Positions 4,100-15,752 of a DNA stretch of 21,179 nucleotides are shown in pieces. The first letter of the stretch is position 1; each line of letters opens with the position of its first letter. The stretch is from Halanaerobiales bacterium. Its GTDB lineage: Bacteria; Bacillota_F; Halanaerobiia; DY22613. The position numbers were made by a program, and so were the translations under genes. The stretch spans positions 1 through 21,179 of the forward strand of contig JAGMES010000071.1 in the NCBI GenBank assembly GCA_023128035.1. The letters run 5' to 3'. Under the pieces are notes generated by a model, which saw only the letters and a program-made list of their open reading frames with translations, was not told where the DNA came from and ran no database searches.

Positions 4100-5383
4100 T
4101 TAGGTCTTTAGTCTTCGTAATACCTTCTTATTCGCTTCAATCGTCTCATCAATCTCTGATTCTGTATGAACCAAAGAGATAAAACCTGCCTCAAATTGAG
4201 AAGGAGCTAAATAAATTCCTTCTTCAAGCATTCCCTTAAAGTATTTTGCGTAAAATTCAGTATCTGAACTACGAACAGTTTTATAATCTTTTACTTCTTG
4301 ATCTGTGAAGAAAAGAGAGAACATTGATCCAGAGCGAGTTAAAAAAGCTGGGACATTTAATTCTTCTAAATTCTGACGAATTCCATCTTCTAACCTTTTA
4401 CCCATTAACCAAAGCTGATCATAAACCCCAGGTTTTTGTAAAAGGGATAAAGTAGAGATTCCAGCTGCCATTGCGAGTGGATTTCCTGAGAGAGTACCTG
4501 CTTGATAAATTGGGCCTTCAGGAGCTAAGTGTAACATAATCTCCTTTTTACCACCATAAGCACCAACAGGCAAACCACCTCCAATAATCTTACCGAAACA
4601 GGTAAGATCTGGATCAATATCATAAAGTTCTTGAGCTCCACCATAAGCAACTCGAAAACCAGTCATTACTTCATCAAAGATAAGTAGAGTGCCATACTCT
4701 TTCGTCAACTCTCTAAGACCTGACAAATATCCCTCTTTAGGTAATATCAATCCCATATTACCTGGAATTGGCTCTAAAATAACCGCCGCTATCTCCTCAC
4801 CACGTTCAGCGAAGATTTTACACAATGTTTCCAGATCATTATATGGCGCGGAAATTGTATTTTTAGCAAAATCTTTTGGTACACCTGGACTTGTAGGAAC
4901 GCCTAAGGTAGTTGCACCTGACCCTGCCTCAATTAAAAGATAATCAGCATGGCCATGATAACATCCTTCCAACTTCACGATTAGATCTCGATCAGTATAA
5001 CCTCTCGCAAGCCTAATCGCACTCATCGTAGCTTCTGTTCCTGAATTCACCATTCTAATCATCTCTACTGATGGAACAGCTTCTACGACTATTTGAGCTA
5101 GAATTGTCTCCAGTTCTGTTGGCGCTCCATTTCCATATGTAAGAACTTCTTCTAAAGCAGCTAATACATCAGGATGACGATGTCCAACAATCATTGGCCC
5201 CCATGATCCAATATAATCAATATATTCATTTCCATCAATATCATAAAGCCATGCACCCTTAGCTCGATTTATAAAAATCGGACTACCTCCTACAGACTTA
5301 AAAGCACGGACAGGACTATTTACTCCTCCAGGGATAACCTTTTTCGCTTCTAAAAAAGCTTCTTTAGATTTATTCAAGTTCAT
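4100..5383 (-). CDS. hemL: Glutamate-1-semialdehyde 2,1-aminomutase, possibly defective
   Basis: HemL is a PLP enzyme that converts glutamate-1-semialdehyde to 5-aminolevulinate, the step after HemA in C5 tetrapyrrole synthesis. The 427-residue frame is open throughout and shows the family landmarks: [51 protein letters not shown], and [17 protein letters not shown] with the PLP lysine at K265. GGAGGTGA precedes the ATG. One thing is odd. The conserved G-x-S-F-G-A-P-T loop reads [10 protein letters not shown] at about residues 83-92, so Ser-Phe is missing, as by an in-frame 6-bp loss. The gene overlaps the hemD remnant and no hemB lies between. With hemA, hemC and hemD broken upstream, activity here is doubtful, though the rest looks normal. 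Confidence 0.9.
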
Positions 5384-6066
5384 CTATGTCACCTCCAAAA
5401 TATTGAACAAGGGCTTTTAAAAGACCCGCAATAGTATATTCTTTAGCTATTAAGTTTACATTACCACCCAATTCTTCTATGGTCTTTGCAGTAATTGTCC
5501 CTATGCAAGCTGTAGTTATATTTTTAAGCATTTCAGATAAAGATGCTGGCTTTAAAAGTTCTACAAGATTCCTGACCGTTGAGGAACTTGTAAAAGTGAT
5601 AGCATCAATTTTACCTTCCTTCAATATTTGAGCCAAATCAGAAATTCCCTCACCGATTACAGTCTGATAAACAGCCACCTCATCTACAAATGCTCCTTTT
5701 TTTGCAATGTTTCTGGTAAAACAGCTCTAGCCTTTTGAGCACGAGGTAGAAGAATTTTTGCACCCTGAAGATCACTTATACTAGTTAAACCATCAGCCAA
5801 TTCTTCAGCAACAAATTTATTAGGAACAAAATCAACTCTCAACCCATAGGCTTTAAGCCTTGCTGCAGTTTCAGAACCAATGGCAGCTAATCTAGCTTTT
5901 CCTAAAACTCGTACATCTAGACCTTTTTCAAATAGTCTTTGCACAAAATATTCAACACCATTAACACTAGTAAAAATGATCCAATGATATTCTTCCAAAC
6001 TTTTTAGTTTTTCATCCAAAGACTCCCAATTTAATGAAGGCTTAATTGCAATAGATATTTCCTGTA
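5370..6066 (-). pseudogene. hemD: Uroporphyrinogen-III synthase HemD, degraded
   Basis: HemD closes hydroxymethylbilane to uroporphyrinogen III. Two frames carry it. The upstream piece (to 5684) includes WESLDEKLKSLEEYHWIIFTSVNGVEYF and ILLPRAQKARAVLPETLQKK. The downstream piece (5370-5678 and slightly upstream) includes VYQTV and IDAITFTSSSTVRNLVELL. Adding one A to the A7 run at 5697-5703 (minus strand) restores one continuous frame reading LQKKGAFVDEVAVYQTV, exactly what the family has. The N-terminal 40 or so residues are missing: homology begins at about 6064 (EISIAIKPSLNWESLDE) immediately after a hemA remnant. It has both a truncated head and a frameshift, so it is probably non-functional. 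Confidence 0.87.
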
Positions 6067-6731
6067 ACGAATCATTTCTGCTTTTTCTCGTAATGCTTTA
6101 ATAATCGGTTAAACTTCACGAATTCGTAACCAATGCTCAAACTTCACCTCTTCTGTGTGGATCAATTTCTGAGCAAGATTTATCTCATCTTTATAGCCTT
6201 TATGAAGCCATTCCACGGCAATCTGCTGTAAATCGTCTATATTATATACCTTCACATTAGAAAGATGCAATGAAGGATCAACATCTCTCGGAGCAGCAAT
6301 ATCTATAAGCAATAATGGTCGCTGATTACTCTTTAACCGAAATTCTAAATCCTCAGAAGTTATGCTTCTCTAACTTGACCAAGAATCTGTTCTTCACCCA
6401 ATACCATCGAATCCATTCCTGATACCACTCTATATAAATGGTTTACAACCTCTAAATCCTTATATGTATAGACATATTCATGAAGATCATCTTTTTTTAT
6501 ATCAGTGCGTTCCTCTAACCATCTCCAGATTAGTTTTTCAACATTTAAATCTTTAAGTAAGAAATATAACTCTGTTCGATTACATGTTGTAAGAATAATT
6601 GTTTCCGAAATCCCTTCTTCTAAACAAAAATATTGGATCATCTCTCCAATCTCTCGATTAGTCAAAGCCATCTTTTCACGCAATTCAAGGGATGCTGATT
6701 TATAATTTGCTCCCAATAAAAAAAGTCCCAT
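6067..6731 (-). pseudogene. hemA: Glutamyl-tRNA reductase HemA, degraded by deletion, frameshift and stop
   Basis: HemA reduces glutamyl-tRNA to glutamate-1-semialdehyde. Residues 1-123 (6360-6731) are a normal catalytic domain start, with LGANYKSASLELREK, catalytic Cys50 in TTCNRTELY and GMDSMVLGEEQILGQVREA. A TAA follows at once. In another frame the sequence resumes with ITSEDLEFRLKSNQRPLLL, IDIAAPRDVDP and VKVYNIDDLQQIAVEWL. So about 125 residues of the NADPH-binding domain are deleted. An in-frame TAA at 6109-6111 then interrupts REV-stop-PIIKALREKAEMIR, which otherwise continues the family sequence to about 6067, where hemD homology begins. The dimerisation domain is lost. This cannot encode a working reductase. 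Confidence 0.92.
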
Positions 6732-6808: not shown

Positions 6809-7513
6809 CTACTTCTCTTTTTCTCCTACATGTAAAGCAACAATCCCACCTGTTAACGGATAGCTTCTCACTTTTTTTAATCCAATCTTTCTAAAAATTT
6901 CTTCAAGTTGGAAACGATCAGGGAAGTGGGTTAAGGAATCGGGAAGATAATTATAGGGGTCTTTCTCTCTACTGATTAACTCTCCTAAACTTGGTAATAA
7001 ATGATAAAAATAAGTATAATAAATACTTCTAAATAAAGGGTTTTCAGGTTTTGAGAGTTCCAACGAGATTACTACTCCATGAGAACAAACCACTCGCTTC
7101 ATTTCACTTAACGCAGTAAAAATGTCATCTACATTTCGTAAACTAAATGCCATGGTAGCACAGTCAAATTTGTCATCTTCAAAAGGAATCTTCATTGCGT
7201 TACCATATTGGAACGTTATCTGTTCTCTGTTTGGAAAATTCAGCAGATTCTTCTTTCCCTGTTCCAGCATTTCTTTACTAAAATCAAGACCGATGATTTT
7301 TGAATCAGGTATTTTCTGGGCAATGGACAGGGAGAGTTTTCCAGTTCCGGTGCAAAGGTCTATTATTTCTTTTGCATCACTATCTTTAACAATTTGAGCG
7401 GTGAATCGTCGCCAATAGCGGTCACGTCCAAATGAGAGAAATGTGTTTGCTATGTCGTAATATTTAGCTATTGAGTCAAAGAGATTTTGAATATAAAGTT
7501 CTTTTCTTCTCAT
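6809..7513 (-). CDS. UbiE/MenG (COQ5)-family C-methyltransferase
   Basis: A SAM-dependent class I methyltransferase of the UbiE/MenG type, which in other organisms performs the last C-methylation of menaquinone or ubiquinone. The 234 residues show FDSIAKYYDIANTFLSFGRDRYWRR at the N-terminus, SAM motif I IDLCTGTGKLSLSIA at about 50-64, and the acidic ribose-binding residue in KIIGLDFSKEML. The family motif DCATMAFSLRNVDD is present, and the C-terminal region ends in LTGGIVALHVGEK, close to the usual GGIVALHxG. AAGGAGAT precedes the ATG. It lies just upstream of the dead hemA, on the same strand. No menaquinone pathway gene is in view and Rnf does not need quinone, so I leave the substrate open. 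The family assignment is strong, the specific substrate is not. Confidence 0.9.
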   Translation of the reverse strand: MRRKELYIQNLFDSIAKYYDIANTFLSFGRDRYWRRFTAQIVKDSDAKEIIDLCTGTGKLSLSIAQKIPDSKIIGLDFSKEMLEQGKKNLLNFPNREQITFQYGNAMKIPFEDDKFDCATMAFSLRNVDDIFTALSEMKRVVCSHGVVISLELSKPENPLFRSIYYTYFYHLLPSLGELISREKDPYNYLPDSLTHFPDRFQLEEIFRKIGLKKVRSYPLTGGIVALHVGEKEK

Positions 7514-7567: not shown

Positions 7568-8707
7568 CTATATAAAAAACATCAGCGCCACAACCGAAGT
7601 TACCGCCAATGAATTAAACAACAATGGTGCTCCTCCCTTTTCAAACAAATATCCTCCCACTATATTACCAATGATTGCACTAATACTAGTATTAACTGTC
7701 TGTAACAAAGTTTGTCCGGTAGTTCGAAACTCTTTTGATACAATTTCATCTACAAAAGTCACACTTGCGATCACAATTAATCCAGAAGAAAGACCGTGTA
7801 AAGATTGAACCAACAATAAAGCGATCGGTAATGTAACCCGAGCTTGGAGAATCCAACGCAAAGTAAAGATTGATGTCCCTAAAATAAAGGACGAAGTATA
7901 ACTAAACCGTCTTAAAAATCGATCAAAACCGTAAAAAATCGGTATTTCTGATAAACTCCAAAGAGCTAAAGCAAACCCTAATAGCCCTATTTTTCCATCT
8001 GCTAATTGATTAAAATAGACTGGGAAAAATGTCAAATGAGTAGCTAAAGTTACACGAATCAAAAATATAAAAATGAAAAAATATAATAATTGCCGATTTC
8101 TAAATAATAGCTTAAGATCCGTTAATTTCGGAGTCTTTAATCCTTTCCCCTTAACTGGAAAGGAAATAGATACCATTAAAGTTGTAAAAAGAACTAAAGC
8201 ATACACCACAAATATCTTATTCAACCCAAACCGATAAAAAATCTGGCCTATAAAAGTTACTACTAAAAGATAACCTATTGATCCAAAAAGTCTAATCTTG
8301 CCATACTCCTGCCTTTTTCCTTTAAGAGCAGTTAAGATTATACTATCTGTTACTGGAACTATTGGCCCTTGAAAGAAATAAAACATACCAAACATCAATG
8401 CAACTGTTAAAAAATGATCTGCCAACCCTACAAAAGAAAAGACCACCATTGATCCAAAAAGAGCGAGTTGTAATAGTCTTTTCTGTGCTTTCTTTAAATC
8501 AACTAATACACCCCAAAGAGGTAAAGTTAGAAAGATTACTAATTTCCCAATAGAATTAATTATACCTATCTCAGTTCCAGGCATTCCAAGCACTTCTCGT
8601 AAGTACACATTTCTAAAAGCAAGAACTGCAAAAGACATATAAAAGATAAAATTAAACAAGCGAAAAGAGCGAATCTCCTTTTTCATCTCCAAACTATATT
8701 CATTCAT
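7568..8707 (-). CDS. Major facilitator superfamily transporter (MFS_1-like, LacY/NupG-type)
   Basis: A 379-residue polytopic membrane protein with 11-12 hydrophobic segments. The loop between helices 2 and 3 has an MFS motif-A-like pattern (PLWGVLVDLKKAQKRLLQ) and the second half has LHGLSSGLIVIASVTFVDEIV. The overall pattern resembles the MFS_1-like/nucleoside-permease and 3-phenylpropionate-type porters; the substrate cannot be read from the sequence. I chose the ATG at 8707 because AAAGGAGA lies nine bases upstream; the frame's farther ATG at 8749 has no ribosome site and lies just inside the expected transcript start. A near-consensus promoter sits at 8756-8784. It is divergent from the peptide/radical SAM locus, so export of a peptide product is possible but not supported by more than position. 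Confidence 0.88.
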   Translation of the reverse strand: MNEYSLEMKKEIRSFRLFNFIFYMSFAVLAFRNVYLREVLGMPGTEIGIINSIGKLVIFLTLPLWGVLVDLKKAQKRLLQLALFGSMVVFSFVGLADHFLTVALMFGMFYFFQGPIVPVTDSIILTALKGKRQEYGKIRLFGSIGYLLVVTFIGQIFYRFGLNKIFVVYALVLFTTLMVSISFPVKGKGLKTPKLTDLKLLFRNRQLLYFFIFIFLIRVTLATHLTFFPVYFNQLADGKIGLLGFALALWSLSEIPIFYGFDRFLRRFSYTSSFILGTSIFTLRWILQARVTLPIALLLVQSLHGLSSGLIVIASVTFVDEIVSKEFRTTGQTLLQTVNTSISAIIGNIVGGYLFEKGGAPLLFNSLAVTSVVALMFFI

Positions 8708-8755
8708 GCTATATCGTCTCCTTTGATCATTCTTAATAATTATTCGCATTGAACT

Positions 8756-8784
8756 ATTATAACAGTAGATTTAGAAAAGTTCAA
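8756..8784 (-). promoter_or_regulatory. Sigma-70 type promoter for the MFS gene
   Basis: On the minus strand TTGAAC (8779-8784) and TATAAT (8756-8761) are separated by exactly 17 bp. The expected transcript start lies about 40 bp before the ATG at 8707. Confidence 0.7.
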
Positions 8785-8917
8785 ATATATTTTCTAACTT
8801 ACAATTATCATATTAAAAATTTCTTAAATTTAACTTTATAAGTTTTTTTTATTATTATTGTTTAATAAACTATTTTTAAAAAGGGTTTTATCTATTAGTA
8901 CCGAATTCCTTATTTAT

Positions 8918-9126
8918 ATGGGGAGAAGACACTTCTAAAAGGAGGTGCACAGGATGATTAATAAACTTTGGGACTTAACAAATTACGATTGGGAAATATT
9001 AGGAGAATCCAATCAAGATTATGGAGTTGGCGACATTATTGATCCTATCAATGTAAAATAATTATTCATCAATTTTTTTACCTATTTTCTATACTTTGAG
9101 AATAACCTAACTTTGCTTCTCCCCAT
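8918..9126. repeat. 11-bp inverted repeat bracketing the small peptide gene
   Basis: ATGGGGAGAAG (8918-8928) and its exact complement CTTCTCCCCAT (9116-9126) flank the peptide coding sequence. The left arm also overlaps a small local hairpin AGAAG-ACA-CTTCT (8924-8936) directly before the GGAGG ribosome site, so two mutually exclusive pairings are possible in the transcript. This may be regulatory or may be chance. Confidence 0.45.
8954..9061 (+). CDS. Putative 35-aa RiPP precursor peptide
   Basis: A short ORF starting at ATG 8954 behind GGAGG (GGAGGTGCACAGG) and ending with TAA. The product has 35 residues, with W6 and W13, Y11 and Y23, five Asp, two Glu, four Asn, and no Cys, His, Arg, Phe or Ala. 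Net charge is about -5. Notable segments are LWDLTNYDWEILGE (7 to 8 aromatic or acidic residues) and the C-terminal QDYGVGDIIDPINVK. It lies 100 bp before a radical SAM/SPASM peptide-maturase-like gene on the same strand, the usual arrangement of precursor and maturase. Lack of Cys excludes sactipeptide or ranthipeptide thioethers; aromatic or Asp/Asn side-chain crosslinks are a possible class. I do not recognise the family. It could be a leader peptide rather than a product. Confidence 0.62.
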   Translation: MINKLWDLTNYDWEILGESNQDYGVGDIIDPINVK

Positions 9127-9161
9127 TTTAACGACTTTACTAGTCTAAGGAGGGACAATCA

Positions 9162-10193
9162 ATGAAATATCGCCCTTTGAGAATAGTTTGGGAACTTACA
9201 AATGCTTGTAATGCCAAATGTATTCATTGTGGCTCAAGATCTGGTAGTCAAAGAGAACATGAATTAACAAAAGAAGAAGCTCTTAAGGTTTGTGATGAAC
9301 TCAAAGAATTGGGATGTAAACATGTCACTTTAATCGGTGGGGAGTTTTTCTTACAACATTATTGGGAAGCAATAGTAAAGAGATTGTTAGATAATGGTAT
9401 TAAAGTTGGTCCATTAACTAATGGAATTTTACTAAACGATACCAATTTACAAAAACTAAAAAACCTCGGTCTTAAAGAAGTCTTTATCAGTATTGATGGC
9501 ATTGAGAAAACTCATGATCATATTCGTGGAGTACCAGGACTTTTTGATAAGATCATTAAAAATATTAAAAAAGCACAAGAAATGGGCTTTGTAGTTGGCG
9601 TCAATACTTCTGTTTCAGCAATAAATCTCGATGAGATACCAGATTTATTTACATTGTTGAAGGAAATAGATGTAAAACTTTGGCAAGTTCAAATTGTTGA
9701 AGATATTGGAAATGCACAGGATAATCCTAAGTTAGCTTTGACTTTAGAAAATGTCTACCGTCTAACTAAATACATAGCAGAATTTAGAAAACAAAAGGAT
9801 ATGAGAGTTATTTTAGGAGACAACATTGGTTATTTTGTTTCCTTCGAACCAATGCTTAGAGATCAACCTTTTACAGGTTGTGCTGCAGGACGATTTGCAC
9901 TTGGAATCGAATCTAATGGAAATATTCGCGGTTGTCTTTCAATAATTAGTACTCCAGAAACCGTTGAAGGTAATGTACGTGAACGTTCACTAATTGAGAT
10001 TTGGAATGACCCAGAACTTTTTAAACTTTACCGTCAACGAACTGTTGAAAAACTGACTGGTTTTTGTGCCCAATGTGAATATCGTAATCTATGTCGTGCC
10101 GGATGTTCATCTCTTGCACACTCTCTAACAGGTGGTTTTTATGACAATCCATTTTGCCTTCATAGATACGAACTCGAAAACAACTTGATATAA
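9162..10193 (+). CDS. Radical SAM/SPASM protein, putative peptide maturase
   Basis: A 343-residue enzyme of the radical SAM superfamily with a C-terminal SPASM domain. The [4Fe-4S]-SAM motif is CNAKCIHC (C16, C20, C23), followed by the SAM-binding GGEF (usually GGEP) in LIGGEFFLQ and SIDGIEKTHDHIRGVPGLFD. The SPASM region has C240 (GCAAGRFALGIESNGNIRGC), C258, C302, C305, C311, C315 and C332, enough for two auxiliary Fe-S clusters. Relatives modify ribosomal peptides (PqqE, MftC, AlbA type) or act in tetrapyrrole chemistry (NirJ/AhbD type). The small upstream peptide gene favours the former. AAGGAGGG precedes the ATG. A strong terminator follows at 10235. No transporter, protease or RiPP recognition domain is evident beside it. 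Confidence 0.88.
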   Translation: MKYRPLRIVWELTNACNAKCIHCGSRSGSQREHELTKEEALKVCDELKELGCKHVTLIGGEFFLQHYWEAIVKRLLDNGIKVGPLTNGILLNDTNLQKLKNLGLKEVFISIDGIEKTHDHIRGVPGLFDKIIKNIKKAQEMGFVVGVNTSVSAINLDEIPDLFTLLKEIDVKLWQVQIVEDIGNAQDNPKLALTLENVYRLTKYIAEFRKQKDMRVILGDNIGYFVSFEPMLRDQPFTGCAAGRFALGIESNGNIRGCLSIISTPETVEGNVRERSLIEIWNDPELFKLYRQRTVEKLTGFCAQCEYRNLCRAGCSSLAHSLTGGFYDNPFCLHRYELENNLI

Positions 10194-10234
10194 TACATGA
10201 ATGAATATAAACTTTTATATGCGAAAATTCTACT

Positions 10235-10271
10235 AAAAAAGGATGTTGGCAAAAAACCAACATCCTTTTTT
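10235..10271. terminator. Bidirectional rho-independent terminator (radical SAM operon / rnf operon)
   Basis: A perfect 9-bp stem GGATGTTGG / CCAACATCC (10241-10249, 10257-10265) with a 7-base loop, preceded by A6 and followed by T6. It therefore works in both directions. It ends the plus-strand peptide/radical SAM transcript and the minus-strand rnf transcript, whose stop codon begins at 10274. Confidence 0.93.
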
Positions 10272-11258
10272 CTATTTCTTATATGTCACATCAATTGCAT
10301 TCTTCTTACACTTTTCAAAACAAGCGCCACACTTGATACAAATCTCAGGATCAATCTCATGCATTTTTTTGACTTCACCCTTGATTGCGCTCACAGGACA
10401 AACACGAGCGCATAAGGTACAACCAATGCAGTTATCGTTAATCTTGATCTCTTCAACTCTTTCACCATCAAAATCAATGGTTCCCATCGGACATTTTTCT
10501 GCACAAATACCACAGTTAATACATTTATCATAATCAATAATTGCTAAATTATCTTTCATCTTGATAGCATCAACAGGACAGTTTTTAGCACAAATTCCAC
10601 ATCCAATACAACCCACTTTACATACCTGCCGAACTTCTTTACCGCTCAAATAAGCAGAACAGCGAATATGATTCTTGCGAGATTCACTAACCAAAGTAAT
10701 AATAGCTTTTGGACATGCTTGTACACATTTTCCACAACCAGTACAGAGTTCAAGGTCAACAACAGGTAAGTTATCGTCACTCATTTTAATAGCACCAAAT
10801 GGACAAACAGCAGCACAGTCACCAAATCCTAAACATCCATATTGACAGCCTTTGCTACCTCCACCTACTGCAGTAGCAGCTTTACAACTTTGAATTCCTC
10901 GATACTCAGAACGTTGGATAGCTTGGGATATACCACCTTTACAGAGAACCTGAGCTATATATTTTTCACCAACTTTTGCAGTAACACCCATGATTTTAGC
11001 AATTTGTACAGCAGTACTTGCACCACCTACTGGACAAGCGTTAATATCGGCATTTCCAGCTACTACTGCATTAGCAAAACTACTACATCCTGGATGGCCA
11101 CAACCACCACAGTTAGCGCCTGGTAGAGCGGTTTCTATTTCTGCAATGCGAGGATCTTCCTCAACAGCGAATTTTTTTGAAGCAATTGCAAGGCCAGTTG
11201 CAAAGAATGCACCTAAAGCGCCCATGCTTAAAAGAGAAGATATATATATATTAGCCAC
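10272..11258 (-). CDS. rnfB: Rnf complex subunit RnfB (multi-cluster ferredoxin subunit)
   Basis: RnfB accepts electrons from reduced ferredoxin for the membrane Rnf complex. The 328-residue product has an N-terminal membrane anchor (about residues 6-26) and then the Fe-S domain C50-x2-C53-x4-C58-x16-C75 (GANCGGCGHPGC). Six ferredoxin-like motifs follow: CLGFGDCAAVCP, CTGCGKCVQACP, CIGCGICAKNCP, CINCGICAEKCP, CIGCTLCARVCP and CIKCGACFEKC. This long form is known from Clostridia and acetogens. The start is GTG with AGGAGGTGA six bases upstream. Unlike the other rnf genes, which overlap or lie within about 20 bp, it is separated from rnfA by 197 bp containing a palindromic element. It is the last gene of rnfCDGEAB. 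Confidence 0.97.
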   Translation of the reverse strand: MANIYISSLLSMGALGAFFATGLAIASKKFAVEEDPRIAEIETALPGANCGGCGHPGCSSFANAVVAGNADINACPVGGASTAVQIAKIMGVTAKVGEKYIAQVLCKGGISQAIQRSEYRGIQSCKAATAVGGGSKGCQYGCLGFGDCAAVCPFGAIKMSDDNLPVVDLELCTGCGKCVQACPKAIITLVSESRKNHIRCSAYLSGKEVRQVCKVGCIGCGICAKNCPVDAIKMKDNLAIIDYDKCINCGICAEKCPMGTIDFDGERVEEIKINDNCIGCTLCARVCPVSAIKGEVKKMHEIDPEICIKCGACFEKCKKNAIDVTYKK

Positions 11259-11322
11259 TTTGGGTCACCTCCTATTTTGGTTAATTAAAGTCGAAATAAT
11301 AACTGCGTTATTTTTTCTTAAA

Positions 11323-11434
11323 TTTAACGACTTCAGAAGGATATTCAAACTCCCACTGAAGCTTTGAAATTATTGTAAGACTTCCACCCCCACCTGTAGC
11401 GGAGGAGAATTTCACCTTCTGAAATGTCGTTAAA
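11323..11434. mobile_element. Small palindromic element with terminal inverted repeats between rnfA and rnfB
   Basis: A 112-bp segment bounded by TTTAACGACTTCAGAAGG (11323-11340) and CCTTCTGAAATGTCGTTAAA (11415-11434), inverted repeats that differ by a 2-base insertion. Inside are CTCCCACTGAAG and the hairpin-forming CCCCCACCTGTAGCGGAGG, reminiscent of IS200/IS605-type end structures, plus GAAATT/AATTTC inner arms. The sequence CTGCGTT occurs on both flanks (11303-11309, 11439-11445). It has no ORF. A MITE or palindrome-associated (IS605-derived) element is my inference. It could instead be a structured intercistronic RNA. Confidence 0.5.
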
Positions 11435-11455
11435 CAATCTGCGTTTCAGCTTTTG

Positions 11456-12046
11456 TTACATAGGAATCAGACCAGAGAAACCCATGAACGCCAAGGCCAT
11501 AATACCAGCAATAATTAGTGCCAAAGGAACACCCTTCATTGCTTCAGGAACATCAGCAAACTGCAAGCTTTCCCGAATTCCAGCTAGAAGAACAATGGCC
11601 AAAGTAAAGCCTACTCCACCACCAAGACCAAAAATTGTACTTTGGATAAAATCGTAACCTTTCATTGGGATCAGAAGTGCTAAACCCAAAATTGCACAGT
11701 TAGTAGTAATAAGTGGTAAAAAGATCCCCAAAGCCTTATAAAGAACAGGGCTAATCTTTTTGATGAACATTTCAACCAACTGTACTAATGAAGCAATTAC
11801 CAAAATAAACGCAACATATTGTAAAAATTCAAGATGTAATGGCTCTAAAATAAAATTCTGAATAAAGTAGGCACTCATTGCTGTTAAAGTCATAACAAAA
11901 GTTGTAGCCATACCCATACTAAATGCTGTCTCAACCTGTTTCGAAACCCCCAAGAAGGGACAGATTCCTAAGAATCTGGATAAAACAAAGTTATTAACCA
12001 GAACAGAAGCAGTAAAAATCAATAACAGATCAACAGTATAATCCAC
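11456..12046 (-). CDS. rnfA: Rnf complex membrane subunit RnfA
   Basis: RnfA is one of the two related hydrophobic subunits (with RnfE) that form the ion-translocating core of Rnf and resemble NqrE/NqrD. The 196 residues form about six membrane helices. Family motifs include [20 protein letters not shown] near the N-terminus and [11 protein letters not shown] near the middle; the Cys residues in CPF and TNCA are the sites known to bracket an intramembrane Fe-S cluster. GTG start with AAGGAGGGGG upstream. It lies 18 bp after rnfE. Length is normal. Confidence 0.97.
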
Positions 12047-12064
12047 TTGTTCCCCCTCCTTTCA

Positions 12065-12661
12065 CTATTTGGACTTGGTCAGATAATTCATAACCCCTAA
12101 GAGTACTCCTAGAGTTAAGAACGCACCCGCTGGTAATACCATAATTGTCCAAGGAGTCCACCAAGATGTGAAACCAGGAATTGCTCCACCAAAGATAGTT
12201 CCCATACCTAAAATTTCACGAATTGAACCAAGTAAAGTTAATGCCCATGTAAAACCTAAACCCATACCTACAGCATCAATCACAGAATCACCTAGAACAT
12301 TTTTCGAAGCAAATGCCTCCAAACGTCCCAAAATGATGCAGTTAACTACTATTAAAGGTATAAAAAGTCCCAATACTTCAGCAATATCTGGAAAATAAGC
12401 TTTTAATCCATAGTCTGCTATCGTAACAAAAGTAGCAACAATGATAATATAAGATGGTATTCTTACTTTAGATGGAATTATATTCTTAGCCAAAGAGATT
12501 ATAATCTCTGAGAAAATCAAAACAAACGATGTTGCTAAACCCATTGCAAGACCATTTACAGCTGCATTAGTTACAGCTAGGGTCGGACACATACCTAAAA
12601 CCAGACGAAAGACTGGATTCTCATTCCACAAACCATTGGTAAAAGTCTGCACACGAGACAT
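12065..12661 (-). CDS. rnfE: Rnf complex membrane subunit RnfE
   Basis: RnfE is the partner of RnfA in the membrane core of Rnf (NqrD-like). The 198-residue product starts with a short soluble N-terminus (FTNGLWNENPVFRLVLGMCPTLAVTNAA), followed by about six helices. VNCIILGRLEAFASKN contains the second conserved Cys of the intramembrane Fe-S site; the first is in GMCP. The ATG overlaps the rnfG stop (TAATG), indicating translational coupling. No defects seen. Confidence 0.97.
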   Translation of the reverse strand: MSRVQTFTNGLWNENPVFRLVLGMCPTLAVTNAAVNGLAMGLATSFVLIFSEIIISLAKNIIPSKVRIPSYIIIVATFVTIADYGLKAYFPDIAEVLGLFIPLIVVNCIILGRLEAFASKNVLGDSVIDAVGMGLGFTWALTLLGSIREILGMGTIFGGAIPGFTSWWTPWTIMVLPAGAFLTLGVLLGVMNYLTKSK

Positions 12662-13215
12662 TATAACTCACCTCCAAAGGCTTCCTCTACAGCTTTGAGG
12701 GTATTCTGAATAATAGTGGTCACCGCATCTGAAGAAATTGTAGCACCAGAAATCGCTTCAACTTCCATTTCATTAGCAACAGGACGTTTCACCACAGAAT
12801 AATTACCAAAAGGCTTATTTTCATAGTTTGATTTAAAACCAGTTTCAGTAATCCGTGCACCCAAACCAGGAGTTTCCAAGTGGCTTAAGATTTTAATAGC
12901 AGAGATCTTCTTTTCAGTAGGAATGAAACCTACCATCATTTTAATCTCACCCTGGAATCCGCCACCTTTAGCTTCAACGGCAATACCGATAGGATTACCA
13001 TTTGCATCGATACCCTGATAATAAGAGAAATCTCCCTTTTGCTTCAGTTCATATGATTCGATACCAGGTAATACTTCTGCAATCGCGTTTTGCTTTTTAA
13101 CTTCAGCATTATGAATAATTTTATCATTAGTCATATTAAAGGTAAACGCCAATACTAACCCTGAGAGAATCGCAATAACTGTCAAAACCAAAATCATTCT
13201 TGACATCTCTTTCAT
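12661..13215 (-). CDS. rnfG: Rnf complex FMN-binding subunit RnfG
   Basis: RnfG is a membrane-anchored flavoprotein on the outer face of the complex. The 184 residues comprise one N-terminal membrane helix (about 7-27) and an FMN-binding domain. ETPGLGARI (114-122) and the covalent FMN attachment motif SGATISSDAV, with Thr159 the predicted phosphoester-linked residue, are intact. The ATG overlaps the rnfD stop (TAATG), with GGAGGTG inside the end of rnfD. Its stop overlaps the rnfE start. The length is typical of Firmicute RnfG. Confidence 0.97.
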   Translation of the reverse strand: MKEMSRMILVLTVIAILSGLVLAFTFNMTNDKIIHNAEVKKQNAIAEVLPGIESYELKQKGDFSYYQGIDANGNPIGIAVEAKGGGFQGEIKMMVGFIPTEKKISAIKILSHLETPGLGARITETGFKSNYENKPFGNYSVVKRPVANEMEVEAISGATISSDAVTTIIQNTLKAVEEAFGGEL

Positions 13216-14129
13216 TAGCGTTTCACCTCCCCATAAGTCCGAGGTCGAGTATATCTATTCAACAATGGTACTGCCATGTTCATCAATAGAATGGAGAATA
13301 ATACACCCTCTGGATATCCACCCCAAAGACGGATGAATACCAAAATAACTCCTGCACCGATACCATATATCCAACGTCCTAATTTGGTTATTGGACTGGT
13401 TACCATATCAGTTAACATATAAAATCCACCCAGCATCAAACCGCCTGCTAAAAGATGAAAAATTGGATCTGCTCCAAATACAGCAGTCAAAACTGCTACT
13501 GAGCCAAAATAACCTAGAGTAATTCGATAGTCAACATATCCTTTATAGATCAGATAAGCACCACCAAGGATAACAGCAAGAGCAGAAGTCTCGCCAAGAG
13601 AACCACCAATATTACCAATAAACATGTTCCAATAGTTCACAGTTGCTCCAGCCAGTGGAGTAGCAGATGCAGTTGCATCAACACCAGCTCCAGGTAAAAA
13701 CCAACTAGTCATTTCTACAGAAAAAGCGGCTATTAAAAACGCACGACCCACCAAAGCTGGATTGAATGGGTTAAAACCAAGACCACCAAATATTTGTTTT
13801 CCTAGAGAAATCGCGACGATGGCACCTAAAGCAGCCATCCAAAGAGGTACTCTAGGAGGCAAAGTTAATGCTAATAAAAGACCTGTTAAAATTGCACTTC
13901 CATCAAAGATAGTAACCTGTTTGCCTCTCAATTTTTGCCAAACAGCTTCAGTAAGAACACTAAAAACTACACATGTCAAAATAACTAAAAATGCTTGAAG
14001 TTTAAAATAATATACCGCCATCAAACAAGCTGGAATCAATGAAAGATTCACAGTATGCATAATGCGAGATACTGTATCTACATCACGTACATGTGGTGAT
14101 GAAGTAACGATGAATTTTGGATTAGACAT
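13215..14129 (-). CDS. rnfD: Rnf complex membrane flavoprotein RnfD
   Basis: RnfD is an NqrB-like polytopic subunit with covalent FMN. The 304 residues start SNPKFIVTSSPHVRD, as in the family, and form about 9-10 membrane helices. GFNPFNPALVGRAFL and GGFYMLTDMVTSPIT are diagnostic. The FMN-attachment motif is SATPLAGAT, with Thr157 as the probable site. The start at 14129 is preceded by GAGGGGGG. It lies 20 bp downstream of rnfC and overlaps rnfG by one base. Confidence 0.97.
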   Translation of the reverse strand: MSNPKFIVTSSPHVRDVDTVSRIMHTVNLSLIPACLMAVYYFKLQAFLVILTCVVFSVLTEAVWQKLRGKQVTIFDGSAILTGLLLALTLPPRVPLWMAALGAIVAISLGKQIFGGLGFNPFNPALVGRAFLIAAFSVEMTSWFLPGAGVDATASATPLAGATVNYWNMFIGNIGGSLGETSALAVILGGAYLIYKGYVDYRITLGYFGSVAVLTAVFGADPIFHLLAGGLMLGGFYMLTDMVTSPITKLGRWIYGIGAGVILVFIRLWGGYPEGVLFSILLMNMAVPLLNRYTRPRTYGEVKR

Positions 14130-14149
14130 CTTTGATCCCCCCTCGTCTT

Positions 14150-15475
14150 TTATTTCTGTTTCCTGCGTTCAGCGAGTACTTCAGCTTTACCCAAACGAAT
14201 ATAATGAATCAGTGGGCGTTTTGCAGGACAGATATAGGAACAAGAGCCACACTCAATACAATCTAAAACATCATATTTGTCCATCTCAGCATACATTTGA
14301 TGCTGTGAATAATTTGCTAAAGTAATAGGCATAAGAAAAACAGGACAAACATCAACACAACGACCACAACGGATACAAGGCTGTGGTTCAAAGTCTGTCA
14401 CCTCTTCTTGTGTAAGAACTAACACACCAGAAGTACCTTTTAACACAGGAACATCAAGATTATGAATCGCAGGACCCATCATGGGACCACCTAAGATCAC
14501 TTTACCAGGAGTTCCATTAAAACCGCCAGCATATTCAACTAGTTCAGATACAGATGTACCAACTTTAGCAACTACGTTCTTAGGCTCCTTGATGCCGTGT
14601 CCTGTTATTGTCACAGTTCTGTCGATCAATGGCATACCTGTTTTGATCGCACGAGAAACAGCTACAGCGGTAGTTACATTGTTAACAACACATCCAGCAT
14701 CAGCAGGTAAACCGCCAGAAGGAACTTCTCGACCAGTGATGGCCGTAATTAACATTTTCTCGCCACCTTGTGGGTACTTAGTTTCTAAAGCAACCACTTC
14801 AATCTCAGAGTCACCCTCACATGCTTTAATCATAGCATCGATAGCATCTGATTTATTATCTTCAATACCGATATAACCTTTGTTAACTCCTACAGCTTTC
14901 ATTAATGCTTTCAAACCAAAGATCACTTCTTCTGGCTGCTCCAACATAATCCGATGGTCTACGGTCAAATATGGCTCACACTCTGCTGCATTTAAGATAA
15001 CATTATCAACAGTTTTACCTTCAGGAATTGAAAGTTTAACATGGGTTGGGAAAGAAGCACCACCCATACCTACGATCCCTGCTTCACGAACAATCTTTCT
15101 GATCTCTTCACTTGATAAAGAGCTCAGATCACCTTTTGGTTGTACATCTTCATGCACAGTATTTTGTCCATCTGACTCAATAACTACTGCTAAAGATTTC
15201 CCACCTGCTCCTACCTCTACTTCTTTGATTGCTTTAACTACTCCAGAGATACTAGCATGAATTGGGGCAGAGACAAAACTTTGACTGTCTCCAATTTTCT
15301 GGCCCACTTTGACCTGATCACCAACCTGGACAAGTGGTTCGCAGGGTGCACCAATATGTTGACGCATAGGGATCACAACTAAAGATGGATCCTTAAGCTT
15401 TTCTAAAGCTTTTTTCGCAGTCAACTCTTTATTATAGGCTGGATGGATACCCTGCTTGAAAGTCTTGACTTTCAT
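14150..15475 (-). CDS. rnfC: Rnf complex NADH/FMN subunit RnfC
   Basis: RnfC is the peripheral subunit that hands electrons to NAD+ through FMN and two [4Fe-4S] clusters. The 441 residues start MKVKTFKQGIHPAYNK. IVGMGGASFPTHVKL (glycine-rich, nucleotide/FMN site) and AAECEPYLTVDHR lie in the first half, then the SLBB-like region. The two cluster motifs are CIRCGRCVDVCP and CIECGSCSYICPAKRP. I place the start at 15475 because GGGGTG lies seven bases upstream. The frame extends to 15526, but that extension is hydrophobic and unlike RnfC. It is the first gene of rnfCDGEAB. Confidence 0.97.
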   Translation of the reverse strand: MKVKTFKQGIHPAYNKELTAKKALEKLKDPSLVVIPMRQHIGAPCEPLVQVGDQVKVGQKIGDSQSFVSAPIHASISGVVKAIKEVEVGAGGKSLAVVIESDGQNTVHEDVQPKGDLSSLSSEEIRKIVREAGIVGMGGASFPTHVKLSIPEGKTVDNVILNAAECEPYLTVDHRIMLEQPEEVIFGLKALMKAVGVNKGYIGIEDNKSDAIDAMIKACEGDSEIEVVALETKYPQGGEKMLITAITGREVPSGGLPADAGCVVNNVTTAVAVSRAIKTGMPLIDRTVTITGHGIKEPKNVVAKVGTSVSELVEYAGGFNGTPGKVILGGPMMGPAIHNLDVPVLKGTSGVLVLTQEEVTDFEPQPCIRCGRCVDVCPVFLMPITLANYSQHQMYAEMDKYDVLDCIECGSCSYICPAKRPLIHYIRLGKAEVLAERRKQK

Positions 15476-15752
15476 ACTTTTCACCCCTTTTACAAATAAA
15501 ATAAAAGCTAAAAAATCCCAGTACAAATTTTGACACTTTCTTTACCACCATAACATATTCGGGATTAAAGTCCAAAATCCTTTCAGTTTTCATTAGTTTT
15601 TCTTTTCACAATCATTTCAAATGTCTTTATTTGATAGTATTTTATAATAAACATTACTTTATGATTATATCGTGGATTTCTTCAAATTAGAATTAAGCTG
15701 TTTAAAATGCAATAAGTAAATATTGGAAAGAAAATTTTAATGATAAAATATA
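15476..15752. other. rnf leader and intergenic region
   Basis: About 280 bp with no gene between rnfC and the mrp terminator. On the minus strand a TATAAT (in CGATATAATCAT near 15665) is present without a good -35. Closer to rnfC, GGATT-N9-AATCC could fold locally, while AATCCC could instead pair with a GGGATT followed by T6, about 45 bases further on. That is a weak attenuator-like arrangement. No recognised riboswitch or Rex-type operator was seen. Confidence 0.4.

Follow-up and report, generated by a model that had tools for sequence, protein, structure and literature searches.

A 35-codon precursor gene beside a compact, splicease-like radical SAM/SPASM enzyme in a Halanaerobiales bacterium

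The stretch of DNA analyzed here (the window, 21,179 nucleotides of a Halanaerobiales contig) carries on its forward strand a 35-codon open reading frame that ends 100 bp before a gene for a radical SAM/SPASM protein (Table 1). The encoded peptide is MINKLWDLTNYDWEILGESNQDYGVGDIIDPINVK, and its start is preceded by the Shine-Dalgarno sequence AGGAGGTG; another possible start in this frame is the GTG at 8945. The enzyme gene begins with ATG at 9162, downstream of AAGGAGG at 9147-9153. The sole terminator-like site within 8600-10400 follows the enzyme gene, and the fold of 10194-10290 has a z score of -4.99. Reading the sequence thus confirms the layout described in the original prediction, in which both genes have good ribosome-binding sites and share one terminator. 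The short frame had also been called too small for usual gene calling, which is not quite so, as it is already present in a protein collection (P0137). The peptide has no NCBIfam or Pfam match and no leader of the Nif11/nitrile-hydratase type.

Table 1. Positions of the cassette features in the window.
Feature	Position	Strand	Basis or remark
Shine-Dalgarno of precursor gene	8940..8947	+	read from sequence
Precursor peptide gene, 35 codons	8954..9061	+	ORF read; ATG 8954, stop ends 9061
W6-D7-L8 codons, presumed recognition motif	8969..8977	+	W and L invariant in 18-row alignment
D22-Y23-G24 codons, presumed X-Y-G splice site	9017..9025	+	Tyr at W+17 to W+20 in 22/22 peptides
Radical SAM/SPASM enzyme gene, 343 aa	9162..10193	+	splicease-like; without N-terminal leader-binding domain
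CNAKCIHC radical SAM cluster motif (C16, C20, C23)	9207..9230	+	Cys invariant in 69 rows
SPASM region, seven Cys (C240, C258, C302, C305, C311, C315, C332)	9879..10157	+	invariant in 69 rows
Intrinsic terminator	10235..10271	+	15-pair stem and T tail

The enzyme contains the domains PF04055 and PF13186, and all ten of its cluster cysteines are invariant in 69 aligned rows that include the window enzyme. An AF2 model (mean pLDDT 92.2, pTM 0.90) consists of a radical SAM barrel and a SPASM region only. The best VIA-align match of this model is SuiB, which we take to be a peptide-crosslinking SPASM enzyme, and the alignment covers SuiB residues 102-439 only; the best PDB sequence match is SkfB (6efn). 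The window enzyme has no counterpart to the residues before about 102 of either protein. We assume this N-terminal part of SuiB and SkfB to be an RRE, so the window enzyme has no fused RRE. Foldseek and VIA-align recover the common radical SAM/SPASM fold, which does not distinguish chemistry. The GGEF motif, singled out earlier as departing from the usual form, is ordinary for this group: in the clade members read (see below), F, C, I or M stands after GGE, and representatives of the PlpX and GDL types carry GGEA.

The two best-scoring NCBIfam models are TIGR03913 (GDL type, 264.1 bits against a curated cut-off of 591.75) and TIGR04103 (nif11 maturase 3, 254.6 bits against a curated cut-off of 725), with a gap to the third-best family at 172 bits. 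The enzyme is far under both curated cut-offs, and it lacks the last 122 positions of the TIGR03913 model and the last 67 of the TIGR04103 model. We take TIGR04103 to be the model behind IPR026482 and, presumably, to describe the PlpX, tyramine-excising splicease type. Lower scores, again under the cut-offs, were obtained for MftC (TIGR03962, 134.2 bits, cut-off 265), for WgkB (NF050035, 129.9 bits, cut-off 650), which we assume to be a crosslinking maturase, and for PqqE (TIGR02109, 111.4 bits, cut-off 381.35). No Xye, Fxs, Grr or Yhh cyclophane model appears among the best 25 of 90 families.

A 90-row tree puts the window enzyme in a sampled clade of 33 rows that is separate with a support of 99/100; the branches joining this clade to the PlpX/GDL clade have no settled order. 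All 33 clade rows have the motifs HCGS and WQxQ, as do 50 and 48, respectively, of the 57 other rows; both are missing from all four of the other radical SAM proteins of the Halothermothrix metagenome-assembled genome (G001, introduced below) in the tree. A third candidate motif, [ND]-x-[IV]-G-aromatic/His, does not hold (23/33 clade rows, 31/57 others). Sequence comparison thus suggests that the enzyme is kin, roughly, to the PlpX- and GDL-type families. A Nostoc TIGR04103 enzyme (853 bits) adjoins a Nif11 precursor that ends in ALYGLPPELF, and an Azospirillum TIGR03913 enzyme (764 bits) adjoins three DUF1843 peptides with LYG, PYG and MYM.

Of 5.8 billion proteins searched, 1033 match the window enzyme at E<=1e-20; among the best 120 of these, 69 (window included) have 53-100% identity, after which identity drops to 44%. 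A scan of one genome per species (84,980 species), which reaches only genes matching two peptide patterns, returned 49 related loci, eight of them clade members. Seven lie in the single Halothermothrix genome G001 (L001-L005, L007 and L008, on contigs with coverages of 79-84x by their titles) and the eighth (L006) in a SAR324 metagenome-assembled genome. Whole-genome searches agree, with seven and one strong matches and then a wide drop; two of these matches extend across the stop codon at the gene end. Of 398 genomes sampled in the G001 phylum, one has clade members (at most five candidates were scored per genome, which recovered five of the seven G001 copies); three others have relatives only, at E<=1e-60 and with open frames 514-533 aa long. 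Clade members occur in one of two genomes of the G001 order and in one of 52 of the G002 phylum. Genomes with clade members are therefore few. A viral origin was rejected, as the 58 pattern matches in a scan of viral_contigs include no relative.

The RnfB encoded in the window is 82% identical to that of G001 and 84% to that of another genome, G003, which places the organism near the order of the Halothermothrix genome. G003 has no clade enzyme at E<=1e-90. The cassette stands alone amid other genes, and neither an exporter nor a peptidase is obvious beside it. A partnership with the divergent MFS gene (7568-8749) was considered and rejected, as the closer match of that gene (70%) is in G003; in G001, with seven clade enzymes, the match is only 34% (two genomes searched). 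An exporter common to the clade loci of G001 was not seen by eye in their ORF lists. The relatives of RnfB and the MFS protein are about 80 kb apart in G003, so the surroundings of the cassette are not conserved there. Beyond the cassette terminator lies what is presumably an rnf electron-transport cluster (10272-15526, minus strand). Upstream, genes that we take to be hemA-like and hemD-like members of the heme pathway appear only as four short ORFs (5370-6731), next to a presumed hemL (4100-5383) that looks whole; gene decay or a mistake in the assembly may account for the short ORFs.

A related small peptide is encoded beside nine of the nine clade enzymes with readable surroundings (the window, the seven in G001, and L006). 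The original prediction had named homologues lacking a small ORF as the observation that would count against it; these loci contain no such case and support its view of a RiPP locus made of a small peptide and a SPASM maturase. In G001, one peptide precedes each enzyme at L002, L003 and L004, four in tandem precede it at L001, two precede and two follow it at L005, and three precede and one follows it at L007. At L008, a single peptide lies 1.6 kb before the enzyme, with a B12-type radical SAM gene between them. Twelve of these 16 G001 peptides were first found by a ribosome-site filter alone and four by a filter requiring a W early on together with W-L or Y-[GSCMA]. Together with the window peptide, 17/17 starts have a GGAGGTG or GGTGGTG site upstream.

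A 17th G001 peptide is an orphan (L101, 7808-7921, minus strand; G001:C2, L086), of 37 aa with two YM sites. It has a good ribosome-binding site and lies directly after an NRPS-looking gene, on a contig that carries none of the seven clade enzymes. A scan of the 5.1-Mb G001 genome with degenerate start patterns gave 18 matches (15 beside clade enzymes, the orphan, and two unrelated short frames; the L007 copy with a GTG start is outside this count), and the same patterns reversed gave none. Among the 18 proteins listed by a profile search, 13 belong to G001 and one to the window, and the remaining four, on other contigs, are new (P0129-P0132). The family now totals 22 peptides of 28-41 aa, 17 of them in G001. 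In 16 of 16 chosen pairs, which are not independent and of which nine cover the first 13 codons only, ps exceeds pn (0.35-1.37 against 0.15-0.38, with values of ps above 1 reflecting very few synonymous sites). A chance ORF beside an unrelated radical SAM enzyme can hardly be reconciled with the peptides at all nine readable loci, this excess of ps, and the genome-wide pattern scan. The genes are a real precursor/maturase pair.

Close to their N terminus, the peptides have W-[NDE]-L in common. In an 18-row alignment W6 and L8 do not vary, and both are kept in 22/22 peptides, with the W-L motif being partly a search criterion for the peptides found later. The position five residues after W (Y11 in the window peptide) is Y in 12, L in six, F in three and M in one. 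Two residues on (W13), W occurs in eight, Y in seven, F in six and V in one, so that it is aromatic in 21/22. MAFFT places the core Tyr wrongly when it aligns the peptides, and distances were therefore counted from the W motif. Membership in the family did not depend on a Tyr, yet one lies at W+17 to W+20 in all 22 peptides, against a mean of 6.9 and a maximum of 13 when the remainders of the peptides were shuffled (2000 shuffles; the interval was picked after inspecting the peptides). With one peptide per enzyme, Tyr is found in 8/8, which was never reached in 20,000 shuffles.

The residue after the core Tyr is G in seven peptides, M in six, C in five and S in four. For other Tyr residues after W, the next residue is E (8), N (5), D (4), S (4) or A (1), or the peptide ends there (3). 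Both Tyr counts omit the second YM of the orphan, at W+15, and, in one L007 peptide, a YL at W+16. The residue before the core Tyr varies (D, C, P, L, V, I, A, E or K), also among peptides of one locus: it is E, K, L and D in the four L007 peptides and L, V, I and A in the four at L005; in all four L001 peptides it is C. The interior between W and Tyr is variable, and the tail after the Tyr is four to 17 residues long. Both G001 enzymes with YM peptides (L007 and L008) belong to one 10-row group with a support of 100/99. That the enzyme tree tracks the residue after the core Tyr is suggestive only, since YG enzymes are spread over several groups.

Three genes upstream of clade enzymes (L002:4257-5741, L004:4232-5716 and L008:4512-5993) encode proteins of 493-494 aa that resemble B12-dependent radical SAM enzymes, all under cut-off. 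Some sibling peptides may therefore be modified further; the window pair has no such neighbor.

We lean towards the view that the window pair is a compact, splicease-like RiPP cassette in which tyramine would be excised at D22-Y23-G24, given the kinship of the enzyme and the conserved XY[G/M] site. According to part of PMC11002830, PlpX (subclass IPR026482) together with PlpY excises tyramine from Xaa-Tyr-Gly. In the window, the enzyme, without an RRE or a visible PlpY, would recognize the N-terminal segment M-I-N-K-x-W-D-L as a handle, act on the Tyr 17-20 residues downstream, and remove tyramine from the peptide backbone (loss of C8H9NO). The product would be a ketoamide in which the residue before Tyr sets protease specificity; the fixed Tyr with a varied preceding residue looks like a P1 series. 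Passages of PMC10373908 and PMC11117315 describe spliceotide products as protease inhibitors. As spliceotide ketoamides inhibit proteases, the product made here is, by analogy, probably a protease inhibitor as well.

The cassette resembles the PlpX/PlpY spliceotide system of Pleurocapsa in having a radical SAM/SPASM enzyme with HCGS and WQxQ and an X-Y-G precursor (DYG in the window peptide; YG in 7/22 of the family). It differs in that the enzyme has 343 aa, against a 412-position model whose cut-off it does not reach, in that the 35-aa window peptide has no Nif11/NHLP leader, and in that PlpY was not seen and siblings have YM, YC and YS. The 15 of 22 peptides with M, C or S after Tyr depart from the XYG rule of PlpX and argue against splicing. 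So do the scores far under both cut-offs, the model positions that the enzyme lacks, its separate clade with the unsettled deep branches, and the aromatic residue kept at W+7. No PlpY candidate was seen by eye among ORFs of at least 20 aa within 8600-10400, and a PlpY-like match was absent from G001 and G002 at E<=1, a weak test that used as its query a single Nostoc neighbor ORF, PlpY-like by position and size. The GDL type (TIGR03913) has the best-scoring model, and its Azospirillum precursors are short (61-64 aa), carry LYG, PYG or MYM, and number three per enzyme. However, its model spans 477 positions with a long C-terminal part, and its peptides have Y-X10-GDL and no W-L motif; the window peptide contains no GDL.

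Part of PMC10533398 reports that the leader is dispensable for PlpXY and that a ten-residue tag can suffice, although in a table printed there 14 of 16 tag placements in FtsZ failed. PlpXY consists of two proteins, and its use on FtsZ took elaborate tag optimization. A passage of PMC12710340 calls PlpY too small for a proper RRE fold. The clade probably represents a compact branch of known spliceotide biosynthesis. A broader proposal, which we advance tentatively and would not yet bet on, is that it forms a self-sufficient class of compact splicease: an enzyme of about 345 aa, with no RRE or PlpY and no need of a long leader, that would use a W-[NDE]-L handle and excise Tyr before Gly, Met, Cys or Ser, such that the seven enzymes and 17 precursors of one genome would make a library of ketoamide inhibitors differing in P1.

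If this chemistry is correct, a small and possibly partner-free enzyme with a short encoded handle could be used to install alpha-keto-beta-amino residues, and the accepted splice motif would widen beyond XYG. There would also be a natural series of ribosomal ketoamides that vary in the residue before the splice site, so that the link of this residue to the protease target could be tested, and many precursors of 28-41 aa, easily missed by annotation, would be added. We found no description of this enzyme/peptide family in titles or abstract openings, a search that did not cover Scott et al. (2022).

The original prediction weighed aromatic crosslinking alongside Tyr-Gly backbone chemistry. A carbon-carbon or ether crosslink would run via W6, the aromatic at position 13 and/or the core Tyr. 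In keeping with this, 22/22 peptides retain W6 and the core Tyr, and 21/22 the W+7 aromatic (W-L being in part a search criterion), and the enzyme shares the radical SAM and SPASM fold of the crosslinking maturases SkfB, SuiB, WgkB and XyeB. In contrast to the SkfB/SuiB type, the window peptide has no Cys and the enzyme lacks a counterpart to the N-terminal part of SuiB and SkfB. The spacing from W to Y varies from 17 to 20 across a variable interior, TIGR03913 and TIGR04103 score about twice as high as WgkB, and the best 25 families include none of the four cyclophane models. In addition, the precursors of the two nearest families (one Nif11, three DUF1843) have the Tyr site without the W-L block. 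The W-L-aromatic block looks more like a recognition segment, and recognition by the W-L segment is what we infer. As the W+7 aromatic is kept and WgkB is among the relatives, crosslinking is kept as an unlikely reading. The RiPP assignment and the radical chemistry thus stand, and of the reactions first suggested Tyr-Gly backbone chemistry fits the comparison best, with aromatic crosslinking less supported. Thioether classes (sactipeptides and ranthipeptides) are excluded for the window peptide by its lack of Cys. The Cys-free character noted earlier holds for this peptide but not as a family trait (12/22 are Cys-free).

Action at the core Tyr without splicing (decarboxylation, Cbeta oxidation, or a bond from Tyr to its neighbor as in mycofactocin) seems to us rather improbable. 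MftC acts on a C-terminal Val-Tyr; here four to 17 residues follow the Tyr, and the window peptide has no C-terminal Val-Tyr. MftC is a relative of the window enzyme, yet its score, like that of PqqE, is far under the cut-off. In siblings with S, C or M after Tyr, the side chain of that next residue could take part in the reaction; the Gly after the window Tyr has no side chain. For mycofactocin, PMC8326336 mentions a tyrosine and a neighboring valine.

It is very improbable that the pair, although real, makes a small redox cofactor or a signal rather than a protease inhibitor. The isolation of the cassette, with no obvious exporter or peptidase adjoining, would suit such a product; the strong variation of the pre-Tyr residue and of the C-terminal tail and the several peptides per enzyme argue against it.

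The SAR324 locus L006 differs in its precursor (7084-7380), where FWNL and AYG, with a W-Y spacing of 20, form the tail of a 98-aa protein with an NHLP leader of the Os1348 type (40.6 bits, cut-off 40). HSSHS also occurs in this NHLP-like precursor, and the gene after it is HxsB-like, just under cut-off (357 against 370); two radical SAM systems may act on this one peptide. Among the matches listed, its only homologue is itself. A second NHLP-like precursor was recognized by eye at 12663-13029 and is cut by the locus end.

Of the more distant loci, 23 were inspected as well (L071, L073-L075, and 19 of the 41 in the scan that fall outside the clade) with a ribosome-site filter, up to 1.5 kb on each side. 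We judged five to have a plausible XYG precursor (L009, L010, L012, L071 and L075) and 18 to have none, which weighs against splicing. At L075:1157-1492, a candidate XYG precursor with AYG and, by eye, an NHLP-looking leader lies beside a related enzyme. Further candidate precursors beside related enzymes are secreted-looking proteins, by eye, with KYG or IYG in Melainabacteria (L010:110-385; L012:5198-5518 and 5622-5963). On an Agathobacter rectalis plasmid (NZ_CP143948.1), L071:4791-4898 encodes the 35-aa peptide MFNLEELSLEFVKISELKTSKNLFGPVMYGTGVRM, which has MYG and is absent from the PLSDB gene table. A radical SAM gene related to ours (37.9% identity to the window enzyme) begins 81 bp further on and is followed by an MFS transporter gene; this may be a spliceotide locus in a human gut species.
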